Shown here: positions 17,184 to 39,460 of the stretch, in pieces
How the letters are laid out: each line of letters begins with the position of its first letter
Numbering within the stretch: position 1 is the stretch's first letter
NCBI GenBank assembly: GCA_944324805.1
Contig: CALUXS010000007.1
Span: 1 to 64,000, forward strand
Source: an uncultured Acholeplasmatales bacterium
Lineage (GTDB): Bacteria; Bacillota_I; Bacilli_A; Acholeplasmatales; Anaeroplasmataceae
DNA: 64,000 nt
Direction of reading: 5' to 3'
The notes under the pieces: generated by a model
The model's database searches: none
What the model was told of the DNA's origin: nothing
What the model saw: the letters and a program-made list of their open reading frames with translations, nothing else
Program-made: the position numbers and the translations under genes

Positions 17184-19916
17184 CTATTCCAGTACTATTT
17201 CTTCCCACGACCATGTTCCATCTTCTAATTTTACAGCTCTATATTTTCTTCCGTCAGCATAATCCTTGTTATATATACTTCCTGTTGAACTAGCACCCAA
17301 ATAAGAATCAGAATTTAAAATAGTACCATTAGAGTATTTAACAATACCATTATTAATAAATCCAATAATTTCAAGATGTGAATCTCCTTTTAAATTTCCA
17401 TATCCAAATACTATACCAACACTTCCTGCAGCAGTAATATTTCCATTATTAGCACAATTATATATACCTACAGTTGATACAGAACCACTAGAGGTACCAT
17501 ATATAGTTCCAACATTATATGCAAATTCAGCACTTATATTCAAATTAGAAATACAATTAATAAATGTGTTTGTTGTACCCGAAGAATCATTAATAGAACC
17601 AATAAACGCAGCAACGCCATATGAAGCTCCACTAACAGTTATTTTACCATTAATTGTGATATTTTCGAATGTATTACTTCCTATTATCATACCAGCTAAA
17701 CCACCTGTATATGAAGTTTGAGTATTAATATTAACATTTTCAAATGTGATATCATGAATATTTGCATCCATTAAATATTGAAAAATTCCTGTATCCGCTG
17801 AAATACTATAAATGTTCAAATTAGATATTTTATGTCCATTTCCATTAAATTCACCTTTAAAAATATTTATTGGTACAAAAGTAGAATCTTCTGGGAATAC
17901 AATATCATTCATTAATTCAACATTTATTGATTCATTTTCTGTAGCAATATAGTTTAACCATTGAAAATCCATAGCATCATAAATTTTATAAACACCATTT
18001 TCAAAATTAATGACTCCAGTTATTTGACCATTAACAATAACATTATCAAAATTTGTTATATACCCATCTGATTCAAAATTCAGTGATCCAGTTATTTCTA
18101 AAACATCTGTTTGATTAAGTTTAATATGTTCATTTAATGACAAATTTCCTGAATAAATAAGTTTTTTCCCAAAAGAGTCTTCCAAGGCAACTTTTAATTC
18201 TGACAGTGAATATATATATTTTTCTTTTCTCTTTTCAATCTTATATGTTTCAAATGTACTGCTTCCAACTTCAACACAGTAATAATTCATATCTGTCATG
18301 GTAGATACATCACTGCTAAATGTTCCACCATAAATTTTTATTATATTTTGTGAAGAACCATTTATAGCTCCATATGAACTATTTCCATATAGTTCTCCCG
18401 AATAAATATTCACATAACTATTGTCATTTGCATCACAAAATAATGCAGCTCTTGTTTTACTTTCAATATGGCTTGAATAAATATCTAATCTACCATCACT
18501 TCTATTTTCAATACCAGAAGTTGAATTATTCCATCCACCACCTCCCAAAGTTGTATTTAATGATTCGATAGTACTATTATTAACTTTACAATATCCTAAA
18601 TTAATCATTCCAACAGAATTTGTACTAGTAACTCGTACTCCATCTAATGTCAAAACTCCATTTGCATTATTTTTAACTGTTCTAGTACAAGCATTAGCAG
18701 TAGTACTTAAATCAATAATTTGACCAAGTTTTATATTGTTTGAATTAAACAAATTTAATACACCATCATTATAAATAATATGAGCGCTAGCGTATGTATT
18801 TCCATCAGTAATTAAAGTCCCACTTATTGTATATCCATTTAAATCTATATTTACTAATTGTTCTTGTTTAACGTAAATAAAAGCGGTGTCTTTTGTTGGT
18901 TTGACAATAGTATCATATGTTAAATCAGAAATCAATTTAACATAGACTTCTCTATTCTCTATTGATAAAATTTCATCCATCCCGTCAATATCATCTACCA
19001 TATATGGACTATTTTTAGTACCATAACCGTCAATACCTTCAATTTTTAAATTAGACTTATCAACAATAATTCCACCATTTATTGAATTAGTGAAATTTCC
19101 TTCTTGACCTTCTGGAACTAATATAGTCGTATTTTGCGAATTAATATCTAGCATTATAGAACTTGCACTTGCTGCGTCACTGATTTCTACTTCTAAGACA
19201 ACCGAATTTTTATAAACAATTAAATGACCCTCTAAAATTGAAATTTTTGTAGCATTACCATATTCATGATAAGAATTCATATCAACTGCAGTAATATCTA
19301 CTACATTAGCACTGCCATAATGATTAACTGCAGCATTAGATGCGTTCACATTTAATGTTCCACCATTTGTTCTAATTGTTACGGTAATTTCTTCTTCAGT
19401 AGCAAAGTTTATTGTGTTAATTCCTTCAAAATTTCCTGCATCAAATCCATTTGCTACATTTACTATTCCATCTTCATCAGTATAATTATTACCTAAGTAT
19501 ACTGAATAATTATCTTGTAAATCTGTCAATAATGTTTCATCATTTACAATTACCCAATAATTTGAATTTGTTGTTTCCCCCAATGTTTCTTCTGAAACAA
19601 TTATGAACTTATTATTTTCTTGATCCCACATAAATTCATTTTTTGCACTAGTTGGAGTTAGATTTTCAACCAAAAAACCTGATTCTTCTACAACCTTTAA
19701 AGCTTCTGACATTGTTTTTGGTTTCCCATCAATGGCCTCATTAGCTTGTAATGCTGTATTTAATTGTGCTATTAGTGTTTCATCATTTGATTGTTTTGCT
19801 TTTTCAGTAAATGATAAATATCCAATTACGGATACTGTTGCTAAAATAGCTAATATCGCAATTACTACTAATAGTTCTACTAACGTAAAACCATTCTTTT
19901 TATTTTGTTTTTTCAT
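17184..19916 (-). CDS. giant modular prepilin with beta-helix and GLUG-like passenger (910 aa)
   Basis: Class III prepilin start: basic leader MKKQNKKNG, cleavage G/F, then FTLVELL with the conserved Glu5 and a hydrophobic helix ending GYLSF. Residues 40-215 form a head also found in the 20754 gene, ending in a VNHYG...VDI...SYHEYG motif. Residues about 320-560 are Asn/Gly/Ser-rich strands typical of a right-handed beta-helix. About 680-870 contain GLUG-like repeats (FNGNGHKISNLNI, GGLAG). No enzyme motif is seen, so an exposed adhesive pilin is inferred. Start at ATG 19916 with GGAGG 7 bases upstream; the longer frame to 19931 lacks its own site. It is 19 bp downstream of a small pilin gene, in one operon. 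Normal pilins are 100-200 residues, so this is unusually large. Confidence 0.85.
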   Translation of the reverse strand: MKKQNKKNGFTLVELLVVIAILAILATVSVIGYLSFTEKAKQSNDETLIAQLNTALQANEAIDGKPKTMSEALKVVEESGFLVENLTPTSAKNEFMWDQENNKFIIVSEETLGETTNSNYWVIVNDETLLTDLQDNYSVYLGNNYTDEDGIVNVANGFDAGNFEGINTINFATEEEITVTIRTNGGTLNVNASNAAVNHYGSANVVDITAVDMNSYHEYGNATKISILEGHLIVYKNSVVLEVEISDAASASSIMLDINSQNTTILVPEGQEGNFTNSINGGIIVDKSNLKIEGIDGYGTKNSPYMVDDIDGMDEILSIENREVYVKLISDLTYDTIVKPTKDTAFIYVKQEQLVNIDLNGYTISGTLITDGNTYASAHIIYNDGVLNLFNSNNIKLGQIIDLSTTANACTRTVKNNANGVLTLDGVRVTSTNSVGMINLGYCKVNNSTIESLNTTLGGGGWNNSTSGIENRSDGRLDIYSSHIESKTRAALFCDANDNSYVNIYSGELYGNSSYGAINGSSQNIIKIYGGTFSSDVSTMTDMNYYCVEVGSSTFETYKIEKRKEKYIYSLSELKVALEDSFGKKLIYSGNLSLNEHIKLNQTDVLEITGSLNFESDGYITNFDNVIVNGQITGVINFENGVYKIYDAMDFQWLNYIATENESINVELMNDIVFPEDSTFVPINIFKGEFNGNGHKISNLNIYSISADTGIFQYLMDANIHDITFENVNINTQTSYTGGLAGMIIGSNTFENITINGKITVSGASYGVAAFIGSINDSSGTTNTFINCISNLNISAEFAYNVGTIYGTSSGSVSTVGIYNCANNGNITAAGSVGIVFGYGNLKGDSHLEIIGFINNGIVKYSNGTILNSDSYLGASSTGSIYNKDYADGRKYRAVKLEDGTWSWEEIVLE
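19313..19835 (-). repeat. 523-bp perfect direct repeat, copy 1 (pilin head)
   Basis: Base-for-base identical to 21737-22259 (offset 2424 bp throughout). It covers codons for the pilin helix C-terminal part through the VNHYG motif; identity breaks sharply on the passenger side and only scattered synonymous changes occur on the leader side. Confidence 0.95.
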
Positions 19917-19935
19917 AAACTTTTCCTCCAAATAA

Positions 19936-20373
19936 CTAAGCAGCAGCCTTCATACCTTCAATAGTGTCGTTTTCAAAATTCCAAACTGCTTTCACATCAC
20001 CATTAGTATAAGTAATACCACTTGCAGTAATTTCAATAGTTTTTCCGCCATCATTAAATAATGCTAAATCAGGAAAAGCTAAATCCCAATCAGTATTTTC
20101 TCCACTAGTTTCAGTTGCACTAACTTTATTACCTTCATACGATAATGTATAATCAGTTGTACCACATTCAATAGTTACTTCACTTCCATCTAACAATTGA
20201 CCTCTAATAACCTCTCTAATTTGAGTCATTTCTGTTTCAATATTAGATATCTTTGCTTTTTCTGTAAAGCTCAAGTATCCTACCACTGATACTGATGCTA
20301 GTATTGCTAATATAGCAATTACTACTAATAGTTCTACTAATGTAAAACCTTTCTTTTTATTCCCTTTTTTCAT
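19936..20373 (-). CDS. small type IV pilin (145 aa), candidate pilin subunit
   Basis: Prepilin leader MKKGNKKKG followed by FTLVELLVVIAILAILAS, Glu5 present, then about 110 residues of beta-rich head. The length is that of ordinary type IV pilins. Its closest relative in the window is the 154-residue pilin at 41574-42038 (shared EKAKISN and EMTQ region, and similar NGDVKAVWNFENDTIEG versus NDEYAATWNIEENTVVG ends). First gene of a two-gene operon with the 910-residue pilin. SD AGAGG lies 9 bases before the ATG. Its promoter has the same sequence as the G-tract promoter at 22370-22397 but a shortened, interrupted G tract. Confidence 0.88.
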   Translation of the reverse strand: MKKGNKKKGFTLVELLVVIAILAILASVSVVGYLSFTEKAKISNIETEMTQIREVIRGQLLDGSEVTIECGTTDYTLSYEGNKVSATETSGENTDWDLAFPDLALFNDGGKTIEITASGITYTNGDVKAVWNFENDTIEGMKAAA

Positions 20374-20402: not shown

Positions 20403-20427
20403 ATTTTACTCCCACGTATTTTGTCAA
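20403..20427 (-). promoter_or_regulatory. promoter of the small pilin operon, 13-bp spacer
   Basis: TTGACA at 20422-20427 and TAAAAT at 20403-20408 on the minus strand, only 13 bp apart. Flanks match the G-tract promoter of the neighbouring pilin, the difference being the tract (GTGGGAG here against a run of ten G). With this spacing the promoter may be weak or use TTTTAT 5 bp downstream (18-bp spacing). Confidence 0.55.
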
Positions 20428-20753: not shown

Positions 20754-22340
20754 TTAATTTACTTTTTCTACAACGTAACTAAAGGAATCATCTGTAGGTC
20801 CATTTATTCTTATTGATTCATATCCTTCTGCAACAAAATTGGCAACCGGATTTTCTGTATGACTCTCAGCTGGATTATACATGTCAAATGTTCCACCATA
20901 AACAACAATTGAAGCATTTGAATTATCAATCAAATTTAAAGTCCAATATTTATTATTCCAACTTGCAAATGTATTAAAATATCCTCCATTAATTTTACAA
21001 ACTGATGAATCACCACATTGTACAAAAGTTAGTCCACAATAAAAGCTTCCTGAATCTACTATTAGGTCAGAGTTGCCTTCCAATCTAAATGTCATACCTA
21101 TAGATGGATAATTTAGGTAATTATCATTAAAATTGAAAGTTCCATTTCCAGATATTGTTAAACTAGCATTTTCTTTTAAATCTATAACCCCACCTTCATT
21201 AATAATATCAGTAGATGGTTTGTCTGAAGAATTGTGTATTGAATCACAAGTGTATGTTATGGTATGCTCATCCATATCTAACGTTATTTTTCCGCTTGAT
21301 ATTATCAACTGATTTAATAATACTATATCGTTAATTAATTTTACGTTTACGATAGATGTATCATCAAATGTAGCAATGTTTAATAATTGTTCCTCACTCG
21401 AAATAAGATATGGACTATCTTTAGTACCAACACCACCAGAAAATAATCTTAAAGCATCTTCATCAACAACAGTTGTTTGATTATTTGTTTGACCACTTGT
21501 AATGGACCCTAAATTAGTAACAACACTTTCATTGGTTGCAGAAACATTAATTATTTCAGTTGAATAATTTTCAACTTTAACTTTTTCAGTTGTTGTTGCA
21601 GTAACAATAACATTTGATATCTTTGAACCATTTTCTACAACAAATCTACCTTGTTCCAAATAAACATTTCCTAAAACAACACCATATTCATGGTATGAAT
21701 CATTAGCAACACTTGTGATATCAACCATATTAGAGTTGCCATAATGATTAACTGCAGCATTAGATGCGTTCACATTTAATGTTCCACCATTTGTTCTAAT
21801 TGTTACGGTAATTTCTTCTTCAGTAGCAAAGTTTATTGTGTTAATTCCTTCAAAATTTCCTGCATCAAATCCATTTGCTACATTTACTATTCCATCTTCA
21901 TCAGTATAATTATTACCTAAGTATACTGAATAATTATCTTGTAAATCTGTCAATAATGTTTCATCATTTACAATTACCCAATAATTTGAATTTGTTGTTT
22001 CCCCCAATGTTTCTTCTGAAACAATTATGAACTTATTATTTTCTTGATCCCACATAAATTCATTTTTTGCACTAGTTGGAGTTAGATTTTCAACCAAAAA
22101 ACCTGATTCTTCTACAACCTTTAAAGCTTCTGACATTGTTTTTGGTTTCCCATCAATGGCCTCATTAGCTTGTAATGCTGTATTTAATTGTGCTATTAGT
22201 GTTTCATCATTTGATTGTTTTGCTTTTTCAGTAAATGATAAATATCCAATTACGGATACAGTAGCTAAAATAGCTAAAATTGCAATTACTACTAATAGTT
22301 CTACTAATGTAAAACCATTCTTTTTATTTTGTTTTTTCAT
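20754..22340 (-). CDS. modular prepilin with beta-helix passenger (528 aa), phase-variable promoter
   Basis: Leader MKKQNKKNG/FTLVELL and residues 40-210 are the same as in the 910-residue pilin; the DNA is identical over 523 bp. After the VNHYG...SYHEYG motif the passenger differs. Residues about 210-300 are Val/Thr/Asn-rich, and about 320-520 show strand-turn repeats with Asn/Gly/Ser ladders (for example LTISGNGTFNFNDN) typical of a right-handed beta-helix. No catalytic motif is seen. The start is the ATG at 22340 with AAGAGG upstream; an in-frame TTG at 22346 lacks its own site. It is a single-gene unit between two hairpins, driven by a promoter with a homopolymeric G tract. Confidence 0.85.
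   Translation of the reverse strand: MKKQNKKNGFTLVELLVVIAILAILATVSVIGYLSFTEKAKQSNDETLIAQLNTALQANEAIDGKPKTMSEALKVVEESGFLVENLTPTSAKNEFMWDQENNKFIIVSEETLGETTNSNYWVIVNDETLLTDLQDNYSVYLGNNYTDEDGIVNVANGFDAGNFEGINTINFATEEEITVTIRTNGGTLNVNASNAAVNHYGNSNMVDITSVANDSYHEYGVVLGNVYLEQGRFVVENGSKISNVIVTATTTEKVKVENYSTEIINVSATNESVVTNLGSITSGQTNNQTTVVDEDALRLFSGGVGTKDSPYLISSEEQLLNIATFDDTSIVNVKLINDIVLLNQLIISSGKITLDMDEHTITYTCDSIHNSSDKPSTDIINEGGVIDLKENASLTISGNGTFNFNDNYLNYPSIGMTFRLEGNSDLIVDSGSFYCGLTFVQCGDSSVCKINGGYFNTFASWNNKYWTLNLIDNSNASIVVYGGTFDMYNPAESHTENPVANFVAEGYESIRINGPTDDSFSYVVEKVN
21737..22259 (-). repeat. 523-bp perfect direct repeat, copy 2 (pilin head)
   Basis: Identical to 19313-19835. Both copies have the same place and frame in their pilin genes, suggesting recent duplication or gene conversion of the head. 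Confidence 0.95.
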
Positions 22341-22369
22341 AAACAATTACCTCTTTCTTTTTCATTAAA

Positions 22370-22397
22370 ATTTTACCCCCCCCCCGCATTTTGTCAA
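22370..22397 (-). promoter_or_regulatory. putative phase-variable promoter of the 528-residue pilin
   Basis: Minus strand: perfect -35 TTGACA (22392-22397), 16-bp spacer AAATGC plus ten G, then -10 TAAAAT (22370-22375). Placing a homopolymeric G run in the spacer means slippage changes the -35/-10 distance by single bases, as known for phase-variable outer-membrane protein promoters in Neisseria. G10 gives 16 bp, near optimum; G11 would give 17. Confidence 0.82.
22376..22385 (-). repeat. poly-G tract (10 G on the sense strand)
   Basis: Ten consecutive C on the plus strand, the longest G/C homopolymer I noticed in this AT-rich window; it lies wholly inside the promoter spacer. Confidence 0.95.
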
Positions 22398-22472: not shown

Positions 22473-22500
22473 AAAAAAGAGACTAAAAATAGTCTCTAAA
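22473..22500 (-). terminator. intrinsic terminator after the 463-residue pilin
   Basis: Minus-strand AGAGACTA / TAGTCTCT stem, 4-nt loop, followed by six T. It ends the AAA+/zinc-ribbon/pilin operon just before the phase-variable promoter. Confidence 0.88.
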
Positions 22501-28734: not shown

Positions 28735-28764
28735 ATTATATATTTTTTATTAACAATTTGTCAA
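28735..28764 (-). promoter_or_regulatory. promoter of the 482-residue pilin
   Basis: -35 TTGACA (28759-28764), 18-bp spacer rich in A, -10 TATAAT (28735-28740) on the minus strand. No G tract. Confidence 0.75.
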
Positions 28765-35779: not shown

Positions 35780-37462
35780 CTAATATTTTTTTTCTTGAAC
35801 AGAAACAACTTCTGACAATTGTTCGTATTCTTCAACGGTTGTTTCTCCTGCAAGTACACGTTCTTTTGTATTTTCTAAAATACTTTGCATTTTTAAACTT
35901 AAGGCATTATTAAGTTTTTCACTAGTAAAATCAATAGACATTACAATATTTCTTAATTCTTCATCCATTACCATAATTTCAAAGACACCAATACGACCAA
36001 AGTAGCCAGTATGATTGCAATAAGGACAGCCTTTTGCCTCATAAATTGTTTGAGGTTCTGATAATCCTAACATTTCCATTTCAGCTAAACTAGTTTTTTT
36101 ACGCTTACGACATTTAGGACAAAGTTTTCTTACTAAACGTTGAGAAATAGCACCTAAAAGTGAATCAGCTACTAAATAGCGGGGAATTCCCATATTAATT
36201 AAACGTGTTACAACACCGGCAGCATCGTTTGTATGAATTGTTGATAAAACTAAATGTCCGGTAATTGCAGCTCGTGTAGCAATTTGTGCTGTTTCTTCAT
36301 CACGAATTTCACCGACCATTATGATATTAGGATCTTGACGTAAAATTGAACGTAAAGCTGTAGCAAAAGTTAAATTGGCCTTAGGATTTACTTGCACTTG
36401 ATTAATTCCTTCAATTACATTTTCCACTGGGTCCTCTACAGTTATGATGTTAGTATCTTCTTTATTCAAGAATCTTAAAAAAGTATAAAGTGTAGTAGAT
36501 TTACCACTACCTGTAGGTCCCGTTAATAATAATATTCCATGTGGTCTTGTAATCATTTCTTTTATTAAATCTTGTTGTTTATCACTAAATCCAATTGCAC
36601 TCATATCATTATTAGAAAAGCTAATATTATAAATACGAATTACAATTTTCTCGCCATTAATAGTAGGTATTGTTGAAACACGGAAATCGTAATCTAAATT
36701 GTTAATAGTTAAATTTATTTTTCCATCCTGAGGAACTCGTCTTTCAGCAATATTTAATTCTGCCATAATTTTATAACGAGCTAAAATAGCCGGATACATA
36801 TGTAACGGAATTTCATCCATTTTGTTTAGTTTACCATCTATTCTAAATCTAATTACTATTTTTTCTTCGAATGGTTCAATATGTATATCTGATGCTCCTC
36901 TACTAATTGCTTCTTTTAATAATGAGTCACAAAGTTTAATAACCGGAGCATCAACGTTAACTTCATTACTATCAACATCAGTGATATCAACATCTTTAGA
37001 TGAAAAATCACTTAAAACGCTGTTTTGTTGAACTTTATTATCTACATACTCAAGCATTCTAGTCATTGAACTATTAGTAACTAGAATGAATTTAATATTA
37101 TTTATTCCGTTAAATCGGAATGAATTTGCCTCCTCAAAGCGAAAAGGATTAGAAGCTAAAAATACTAGTGTATCATCTTCCTTTGTGAAAGGAAGCATTT
37201 GTAGTTCAATTAACTTTTCTCTAGGAAGTGTATTAATTAAATCCAGGTCTAATTCTGTTAACTGACATACCCTAAATTCTACTCCTAAAAATTTACCTAA
37301 ATGACGGTAAATATCCTCTTCACTTAGTATACTATCCTTACTCAATTCGGTAAATAATGGGGATGCATTAAGCTCTGAACGTGTATAATATTCTTTAACA
37401 ATATTAGGTTTTAAGACTCTTTTCGCAACTAAATATTTTCCAAATAATTCATTAAAAATCAT
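35780..37462 (-). CDS. pilB: type IV pilus assembly ATPase PilB (GspE family)
   Basis: A 560-residue hexameric ATPase driving pilus extension at the cytoplasmic membrane. A GspE N1-type domain (about 45-110, LGKFLGVEF...LPREKLIELQMLPF) precedes the motor: SDIHIEPFE near 193, Walker A GPTGSGKST at 315-323, Asp box and Walker B MVGEIRDEE at 382-390, His box STIHTNDA near 407-414. A four-Cys zinc site follows (Cys448, Cys451, Cys479, Cys482). The full N-terminal domain separates it from the shorter ComGA. It is the last gene of the pilus operon, 10 bp after pilC. Confidence 0.94.
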   Translation of the reverse strand: MIFNELFGKYLVAKRVLKPNIVKEYYTRSELNASPLFTELSKDSILSEEDIYRHLGKFLGVEFRVCQLTELDLDLINTLPREKLIELQMLPFTKEDDTLVFLASNPFRFEEANSFRFNGINNIKFILVTNSSMTRMLEYVDNKVQQNSVLSDFSSKDVDITDVDSNEVNVDAPVIKLCDSLLKEAISRGASDIHIEPFEEKIVIRFRIDGKLNKMDEIPLHMYPAILARYKIMAELNIAERRVPQDGKINLTINNLDYDFRVSTIPTINGEKIVIRIYNISFSNNDMSAIGFSDKQQDLIKEMITRPHGILLLTGPTGSGKSTTLYTFLRFLNKEDTNIITVEDPVENVIEGINQVQVNPKANLTFATALRSILRQDPNIIMVGEIRDEETAQIATRAAITGHLVLSTIHTNDAAGVVTRLINMGIPRYLVADSLLGAISQRLVRKLCPKCRKRKKTSLAEMEMLGLSEPQTIYEAKGCPYCNHTGYFGRIGVFEIMVMDEELRNIVMSIDFTSEKLNNALSLKMQSILENTKERVLAGETTVEEYEQLSEVVSVQEKKY

Positions 37463-37472
37463 ACTTTTCCTC

Positions 37473-38681
37473 CTAAATACTTTGCATCAAAGAAATAATT
37501 GGTAATAAGACTGACAAAATAACTACCGCAACAATTCCACCTAAGAATATTATCATAATAGGCTCTAAGGCTGCTGTTGCCTTTTGAATAGATGATTCTA
37601 CCTGCTCATCAAAGTAATTACTTGTTGCCTCTAATACTTCTTCTATGTTTCCACTTTTTTCACCAACATTAATCATTTCTGTAAGCATTAATGGAAAAAG
37701 TTTTGTATTTTCAATTGCTAAAGCTATTCTTTTACCACGCTTAACCTCATCTATTGTATACTTAAATTTTTCACTAAATACAGCATTTCCTAGCATTCTT
37801 CTTAAGTTTTCTAAACAATCAGTAATTGTCATACCACTATTTAAAAGAATAATAAATGCTTTTGAAAAACGTGATGTTATTAAATTTTTCTCAATTCTAC
37901 CAATAAATGGCAAATGAAACTTTAGCCAATCTAAAGCGTATCTACCTTTTTTTGTTTTCTTGAAGAATAAATATGCAATTAAAAAAACAATAAAAATACC
38001 TGCTATAATAAAAATAAAGTACATTTTTATAAATTCAGATATTCCCATTACAACTCTAGTAAGTGTAGGAACATCACCACCAAGTTCATTAATTGTTCCT
38101 TCAAATTGAGGTAACACATATAAAGCTAAAAATAATGTTACTACTACAATTAAAACTAACAAAATGATTGGATAAACCATGGCGGTCTTTGCTTTTCTTT
38201 TTATTTTTCTATCATTTTCATAATAATCTGCTAAGCTTTCTAAAACTTGATCTAAAGAACCTGATACTTCACCAATTCCAATCATATTAACAAAAAAATT
38301 TGGAAATACTTTAGGAAATTTAGCAAATGCCTCTGACAATAAAACTCCTGATTGAATATCCTGATAAACCTGTAATAAAACCTTTTGAAATGGTTTAGAA
38401 TGCTTTTGACTCCTCAATGAATTTAAAGAATCACTTATTGAAATTCCAGCTTTTATCATTACTGAAAACTGTCTTAGAAAAGAGATAACCTCATTCATTT
38501 TTACCTTACTAGAAACTGCAAAGAATAAATTAGGTTCTTTTTCTTTGTAAATTTTAGCTTTTATTAAAAATAAATTTTCTCTTTTTAAATTTGCTCTTAA
38601 GCTAACTTCATCTGTAGCTTCACGATTAAAAGAAACCTTTTTACCTAAAGCATCAATTGCCTCACAAACATAAAGTGCCAT
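37473..38681 (-). CDS. pilC: type IV pilus platform protein PilC (GspF family)
   Basis: Polytopic membrane platform about 402 residues long with two GspF domains. The first is near 65-190 (FLRQFSVMIKAGISISDSL, FVNMIGIGEVSGSLDQVL). The second is near 265-395 (FSKAFIILLNSGMTITDCL, EMINVGEKSGNIEEVL) with helices after each. The ATG at 38681 overlaps the prepilin-peptidase stop as TAATG; an upstream in-frame start lies inside pilD and is less likely. It works with PilB to insert pilins. Confidence 0.93.
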   Translation of the reverse strand: MALYVCEAIDALGKKVSFNREATDEVSLRANLKRENLFLIKAKIYKEKEPNLFFAVSSKVKMNEVISFLRQFSVMIKAGISISDSLNSLRSQKHSKPFQKVLLQVYQDIQSGVLLSEAFAKFPKVFPNFFVNMIGIGEVSGSLDQVLESLADYYENDRKIKRKAKTAMVYPIILLVLIVVVTLFLALYVLPQFEGTINELGGDVPTLTRVVMGISEFIKMYFIFIIAGIFIVFLIAYLFFKKTKKGRYALDWLKFHLPFIGRIEKNLITSRFSKAFIILLNSGMTITDCLENLRRMLGNAVFSEKFKYTIDEVKRGKRIALAIENTKLFPLMLTEMINVGEKSGNIEEVLEATSNYFDEQVESSIQKATAALEPIMIIFLGGIVAVVILSVLLPIISLMQSI

Positions 38682-39460
38682 TAAATCACCAACCCTAAAT
38701 ACCAATTTATAATATCTTTTCCATAAACCATTGCAATATATATACCAATAATTAAATACGGGCCAAATGCAATCTCTTCTTCTTTATTTTTTATTTTTAA
38801 TCCTATTAATAATAAACTAATAATAGACCCAATTAATGAGCCTAATAAAACAGCCAACAAAAGTGCTTTATAGCCTAATAATAAGCCGGCTGTTCCCATT
38901 AAAATTACATCTCCCATTCCTAAGCACTCTCTTTTTAAAAAGAATGCTCCAATAACTCTAATAAGAAAGAAAAAACTAAAACCTACAGCAGCTCCTATTA
39001 AATATTCAGTAGGGAATTTATTTGCAATTATTGAAAAATAAACAACATATCCTAAACTCAATATTAAAAAAATAATTTGTGTTGTATCATAAATAAAGTG
39101 ATTATAATAATCAATCCCTGCAATTATTAAAAACAACCAAGTTATTAAAAATAAAAACAAAGTGTCTATGCTTATTTTAAATTTTAAATATATAAGTAAA
39201 AATGAAATTCCACCTAAAAGTTCAAGAATAAAGGAAAACCAACCAATTTTTTCATGACAATATCTACATTTCCCTTTTAATATTAAAAAACTAATAATTG
39301 GTATATTATCATACCACTTAATTGGTTTATTACAATTACCACAAAATGAATTAGGCTTAACAATACTTATATGCTTAGGAACACGATAAATAACAACTCC
39401 ACTAAAGCTTGCTAAAATTGTTCCTAGTAAGAAACTAAATATACCAAGAATAACATCCAT
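38681..39460 (-). CDS. pilD: prepilin peptidase/N-methyltransferase PilD
   Basis: A 259-residue bifunctional membrane enzyme that cleaves prepilin leaders after Gly and N-methylates the new Phe1. It has the cytoplasmic zinc motif Cys40/Cys43/Cys65/Cys68 and the aspartyl protease pair Asp117 (GIDYYN) and Asp184 (GMGDV). Its substrates are presumably all the pilins in this window. It overlaps the PilX-like gene by 26 bp and pilC by 1 bp. Confidence 0.95.
   Translation of the reverse strand: MDVILGIFSFLLGTILASFSGVVIYRVPKHISIVKPNSFCGNCNKPIKWYDNIPIISFLILKGKCRYCHEKIGWFSFILELLGGISFLLIYLKFKISIDTLFLFLITWLFLIIAGIDYYNHFIYDTTQIIFLILSLGYVVYFSIIANKFPTEYLIGAAVGFSFFFLIRVIGAFFLKRECLGMGDVILMGTAGLLLGYKALLLAVLLGSLIGSIISLLLIGLKIKNKEEEIAFGPYLIIGIYIAMVYGKDIINWYLGLVI

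Follow-up and report, generated by a model that had tools for sequence, protein, structure and literature searches.

A predicted phase-variable poly-G spacer promoter before a type IV pilin gene of an uncultured Acholeplasmatales bacterium, and the recurrence of its design in related genomes

The window, by which we mean the whole 64,000-nucleotide stretch analysed, belongs to a 101-kb contig of an uncultured Acholeplasmatales bacterium and carries a cluster of type IV pilin-like genes. The gene of main concern here encodes 528 residues (20754..22340, minus strand) and matches the N_methyl profile PF07963 (E 3e-9); a Pfam search of the protein returned no other domain. It begins with a class III leader containing the GFTLVEL methylation motif, followed by a long N-terminal helix. 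In a structure model of the protein, submitted without the initial Met (527 aa), helix 11-62 is the only part modelled with any confidence, residues 124-310 are unmodelled, and the mean pLDDT of 43 leaves the C-terminal 400 residues too poor for fold comparison. Additional pilin-like genes of the window range from 118 to 1233 aa, and genes for assembly proteins (Pfam: T2SSE ATPase, T2SSF platform protein and A24 prepilin peptidase) lie at 35780..39460 on the minus strand. Together, the N_methyl motif and these pilus assembly genes suggest a surface location for the 528-aa pilin.

Two further PF07963 genes on the minus strand, for a 145-aa pilin (19936..20373) and a 910-aa pilin-like protein (17184..19916, beginning 20 bp after the 145-aa gene), are possible second and third members of an operon. 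A terminator search detected none before either of them, so that a switch may act on as many as three pilins together. The original prediction had one surface pilin under control of the promoter described below; the 528-aa gene is indeed placed behind it, while "one" may be too narrow. The 145-aa gene also has a paralogous promoter of its own (20403..20427, minus strand), TTGACA-AAATACGTGGGAG-TAAAAT, in which the tract is interrupted and the spacer measures 13 bp; this second copy would be a weak or dead version. An alignment of the paralogous promoters draws on the two copies in the window, with L243 and L245 left out. Elsewhere in the cluster, a sigma-A promoter matching at 12 of 12 hexamer positions, with a spacer of 18 and no G tract, precedes a 485-aa pilin gene (28735-28764), and thus not all pilins of the cluster are under G-tract control.

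The 528-aa and 910-aa proteins share their first ~205 residues, which are encoded by a 630-bp direct repeat (21715..22344 and 19291..19920, minus strand, 98% identical), and diverge thereafter. Recombination between the copies would put another C-terminal part behind the promoter of the 528-aa gene, and it can be argued from this arrangement that such exchange is the main source of variation at the locus, with the G tract secondary. We consider that extremely improbable, since it leaves unexplained both the tract and its recurrence before unrelated genes elsewhere; moreover, recombination and slippage in the G tract are compatible.

Read directly from the minus strand, the sequence from 22397 downward is TTGACA-AAATGC-GGGGGGGGGG-TAAAAT, the full stretch being TTGACAAAATGCGGGGGGGGGGTAAAAT. 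It comprises a -35 hexamer with six of six consensus matches (TTGACA, 22392..22397), a -10 hexamer with five of six (TAAAAT, 22370..22375) and a spacer of 16 bp whose last ten bases are all G (22376..22385). The G10 tract therefore lies wholly between -35 and -10, flush against the latter, exactly as had been described for the region upstream of the 528-residue pilin. The ATG of the 528-aa gene is at 22340, 29 nt past the -10. An intrinsic terminator (8-bp stem and T run; 22478..22497, minus strand) follows the preceding 463-aa pilin gene just upstream, which makes TTGACA/G10/TAAAAT the best-placed predicted promoter of the 528-aa gene. The present 16-bp allele would have intermediate strength; the original prediction took G11 to be optimal and G9 to be weak.

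The tract had been called conspicuous for an AT-rich genome, and in the whole 1.83-Mb assembly no other G run reaches a length of eight. Under a first-order Markov model of the window, C runs of at least 10 are expected 0.003 times per 64 kb and 0.08 times per genome, and none of 100 dinucleotide-shuffled versions of the window contained the joint pattern of promoter plus tract. Homopolymer lengths in MAGs are uncertain, and the length of 10 is as assembled, so that the true number may be 9 or 11. Adapter-linked poly-G artefacts are also real at the contig ends of some MAGs of the family: at four loci (L274, L291, L295, L309), G runs of 12-29 follow adapter-like or poly-A sequence where a contig ends, and they are probably artefacts of sequencing that persist in public MAGs. 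Terminal runs of 8-29 Gs, several of which come after adapter-like sequence, were treated as artefacts and excluded from the census given below. The tract studied here lies 22 kb inside its contig and is thus not of that type, and tracts at the same promoter position recur in independent assemblies while controls stay at zero. We accordingly regard it as very unlikely that the tract is neutral, or an artefact of assembly or sequencing, in a promoter of ordinary strength.

The promoter design was sought in relatives at increasing taxonomic distance. A pattern of TTGACA-N4-9-G6-N0-10-TANNNT is present in all eight genomes of the genus (reversed-pattern control, 0), and its G7 form in 15 of 55 genomes of the family, covering three of seven genera (control, 0). 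With the stricter G8/TAWAAT pattern, a sample of 395 genomes of the class gave 23 positive genomes from 15 of 192 genera, and both the reversed pattern and a separate C8 pattern gave none in the same 395. A scan of GTDB r220 contigs, which shows breadth only and yields no frequencies, found at least 119 stretches with the pattern. Many of the matches listed are MAGs of gut Clostridia, Bacilli and Lachnospiraceae; Treponema, Saccharibacteria, Streptococcus, Streptobacillus and Ca. Ancillula are also among them, and some, notably single matches in distant phyla, may be due to chance. No allele of the promoter studied here turned up in a search of viral contigs.

The tracts are specific in strand and position. 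A census of the family collected 111 non-artefact tracts of at least eight G (all those in the genus, nearly all in the richest sister genus, and a sample elsewhere). Hexamers matching at 10 or more of 12 positions flank 48 of the 111 on the G strand and 5 on the C strand; at 11 or more of 12, the counts are 44 and 0. In the sites recovered with the pattern, no base separates the tract from the -10 in 50 of 58 cases from the class and family and in 89 of 122 among the r220 matches listed. Spacers in the class and family set range from 14 to 21 with a mode of 18-19, a distribution that is partly set by the search, since the pattern fixes the hexamers. In several relatives the spacer measures 19-21, which exceeds the usual length in active sigma-A promoters, and low activity would be expected there. 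The number of Gs and the remainder of the spacer compensate for each other weakly (r about -0.1), and this is not used as evidence.

Strict specificity of this kind also fits a recognised element, and the tract might accordingly be a fixed structural or regulator-binding feature, such as a stiff spacer or the site of a poly-G-reading protein, whose length is no switch. Some sets do keep one length across species; in one from a sister genus, G8 is constant in three. Elsewhere, tract length varies between relatives and paralogues, the comparison being drawn from one genome per species. On one contig of a Bacilli genome (G410, contig C6), tandem promoters with the same core have G9 six times and G8 once, and near-identical promoter pairs in other genomes read G10/G11 and G9/G10. 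Orthologous promoters of three species carry G13/G13/G11, and those of another set G10/G10/G12. The number of Gs thus differs between promoters whose flanks are almost the same, which speaks against a fixed element. So do homologous pilin promoters within the genus. In a second species (G003), G10 in a spacer of 17 precedes a matching operon that encodes a pilin of 145 aa and a long one; the promoter of its paralogous operon (G003:C21) instead has a TG repeat and G4, again with a spacer of 17, and in a further genome (G004:C28) a long pilin is preceded by a G-rich spacer of mixed sequence, 18 in length. The homopolymer is present in some of these promoters and missing from others, whereas the spacing stays near 17; this would be expected if the tract is used for its mutability and not for its bases. 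We therefore judge the fixed-element explanation unlikely.

Genes for secreted, lipoprotein or adhesin-like products are over-represented behind these promoters, as judged from predicted sequence features scored with a simple heuristic rather than a trained signal-peptide predictor. Among the r220 matches listed, a hydrophobic N terminus occurs in 60 of 87 ORFs behind promoters and 150 of 549 flanking ORFs of the same contigs (Fisher 2e-13), and in the class and family set in 42 of 49 versus 88 of 147 (8e-4). A lipobox-like motif was scored in 21 of the 87 r220 target ORFs against 32 of the 549 flanking ones, with no enrichment in the class and family set. Pfam domains among the targets include BspA-type leucine-rich repeats and Listeria-Bacteroides (List_Bact) repeats. 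Within the genus, the targets are pilins in G000 and G003, small proteins with a membrane-type leader in G001, G002, G004 and G006, and one IclR-type regulator in G002.

We also note some peculiar loci: (i) A tandem array (L227 and L228; G410:C6:5500-27500) comprises seven or more paralogous genes for secreted proteins, and a separate TTGACAAATYGAATAC-G8/9-TATAAT promoter precedes each of them. (ii) At six loci in Clostridia MAGs (L082, L083, L123, L136, L159, L164), a G8/G9 promoter is directly followed by an inverted repeat and a T run, resembling a promoter joined to a terminator. (iii) In two genera, a gene for a HAD-like hydrolase (FDLYGTLIDI) carries a tract of G8-G10 at its 5' end or immediately ahead of it, namely in the genus (L031, L039, L040) and in the sister genus (L268, L282, L290, L300, L306, L310), where the arrangement is TATACT-G10-TATATT/TATACT, of constant length and with no clear -35. 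(iv) One G10 tract lies within a reading frame (L027; G002:C1:2019-2028) and leaves it out of frame; the gene looks in sequence like a Dam-type adenine methyltransferase and is a candidate phase-variable methyltransferase of the genus.

Comparison of relatives supports the original prediction that slippage tunes the spacing of the promoter: the design recurs throughout the genus with zero controls, is specific in strand and position, precedes surface genes, and differs in G number between otherwise near-identical copies. In the mechanism that we propose, slipped-strand mispairing would add or remove Gs in the G10 tract, giving spacers of 15, 17 or 18; the altered distance between -35 and -10 would change the strength of the sigma-A promoter, and expression of the 528-aa pilin would be switched or graded, with the 145-aa and 910-aa pilins behind the same promoter possibly switched along. 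The same promoter design recurs in the genus, family and class before secreted and surface proteins. Slippage within this species, transcription from the promoter and the effect of length on output are inferred. We hold it to be very likely, on sequence evidence, that the element is a phase-variable promoter of the porA kind switching or grading the 528-aa pilin, and one case of a recurrent surface-gene design; in bacteria of this lineage, the gain or loss of a G would probably turn surface proteins up or down.

A broader proposal, on which our own opinion is evenly balanced, is that poly-G spacer promoters form a switching system that is widespread, and has largely been overlooked, in uncultured gut Bacilli, Clostridia and others. 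Its signature would be a stereotyped, strand-locked promoter of TTGACA, a short AT-rich stretch and G8-11 flush with TATAAT, placed before dozens of unrelated surface genes, sometimes in tandem arrays, and giving each cell a combinatorial surface repertoire readable from metagenomes. With a porA-like slippage design of clean signature and zero control background that recurs across uncultured gut lineages, surface-protein switching would become countable from existing metagenome reads in bacteria that cannot be cultivated. For the source organism, the prediction is of populations mixed for pilin expression.

The best-known on/off promoters in Firmicutes-type gut bacteria are invertible ones. 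Within the Mollicute lineage, the vlp promoters of Mycoplasma hyorhinis resemble the present case in having a homopolymer in the promoter spacer of surface protein genes; theirs is poly-A before lipoproteins, whereas here it is poly-G before type IV pilins. In Treponema pallidum, poly-G between -35 and -10 of tp0126 likewise sets transcription, which is best at a total spacing of 17 (PMC7864442), although tp0126 is an outer-membrane OmpW homologue of a spirochaete and unlike the pilin here; the poly-G tracts of the T. pallidum tpr genes act by another, non-spacing route. The same poly-G spacing effect is reported for Neisseria meningitidis porA (PMC7864442; van der Ende 1995, as cited in PMC5084427), where poly-G lies inside the sigma-70-type promoter spacer of a surface protein and its length sets the spacing. 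That protein is a Gram-negative porin, whereas here a type IV pilin is encoded by an uncultured Acholeplasmatales relative, behind perfect or near-perfect hexamers. Bifidobacterium breve, a gut Gram-positive, switches pilus genes by G-tract slippage, but through a tract in the coding sequence that causes frameshift, and in sortase pili rather than type IV pilins; one sentence by its authors mentions G tracts in promoter spacers as well (PMC9187656). The mechanism itself is thus known from Neisseria porA and Treponema tp0126; new, in comparison with the open-access literature in PMC, are the lineage, the pilin operon and the frequency of recurrence in uncultured gut Bacilli and Clostridia.
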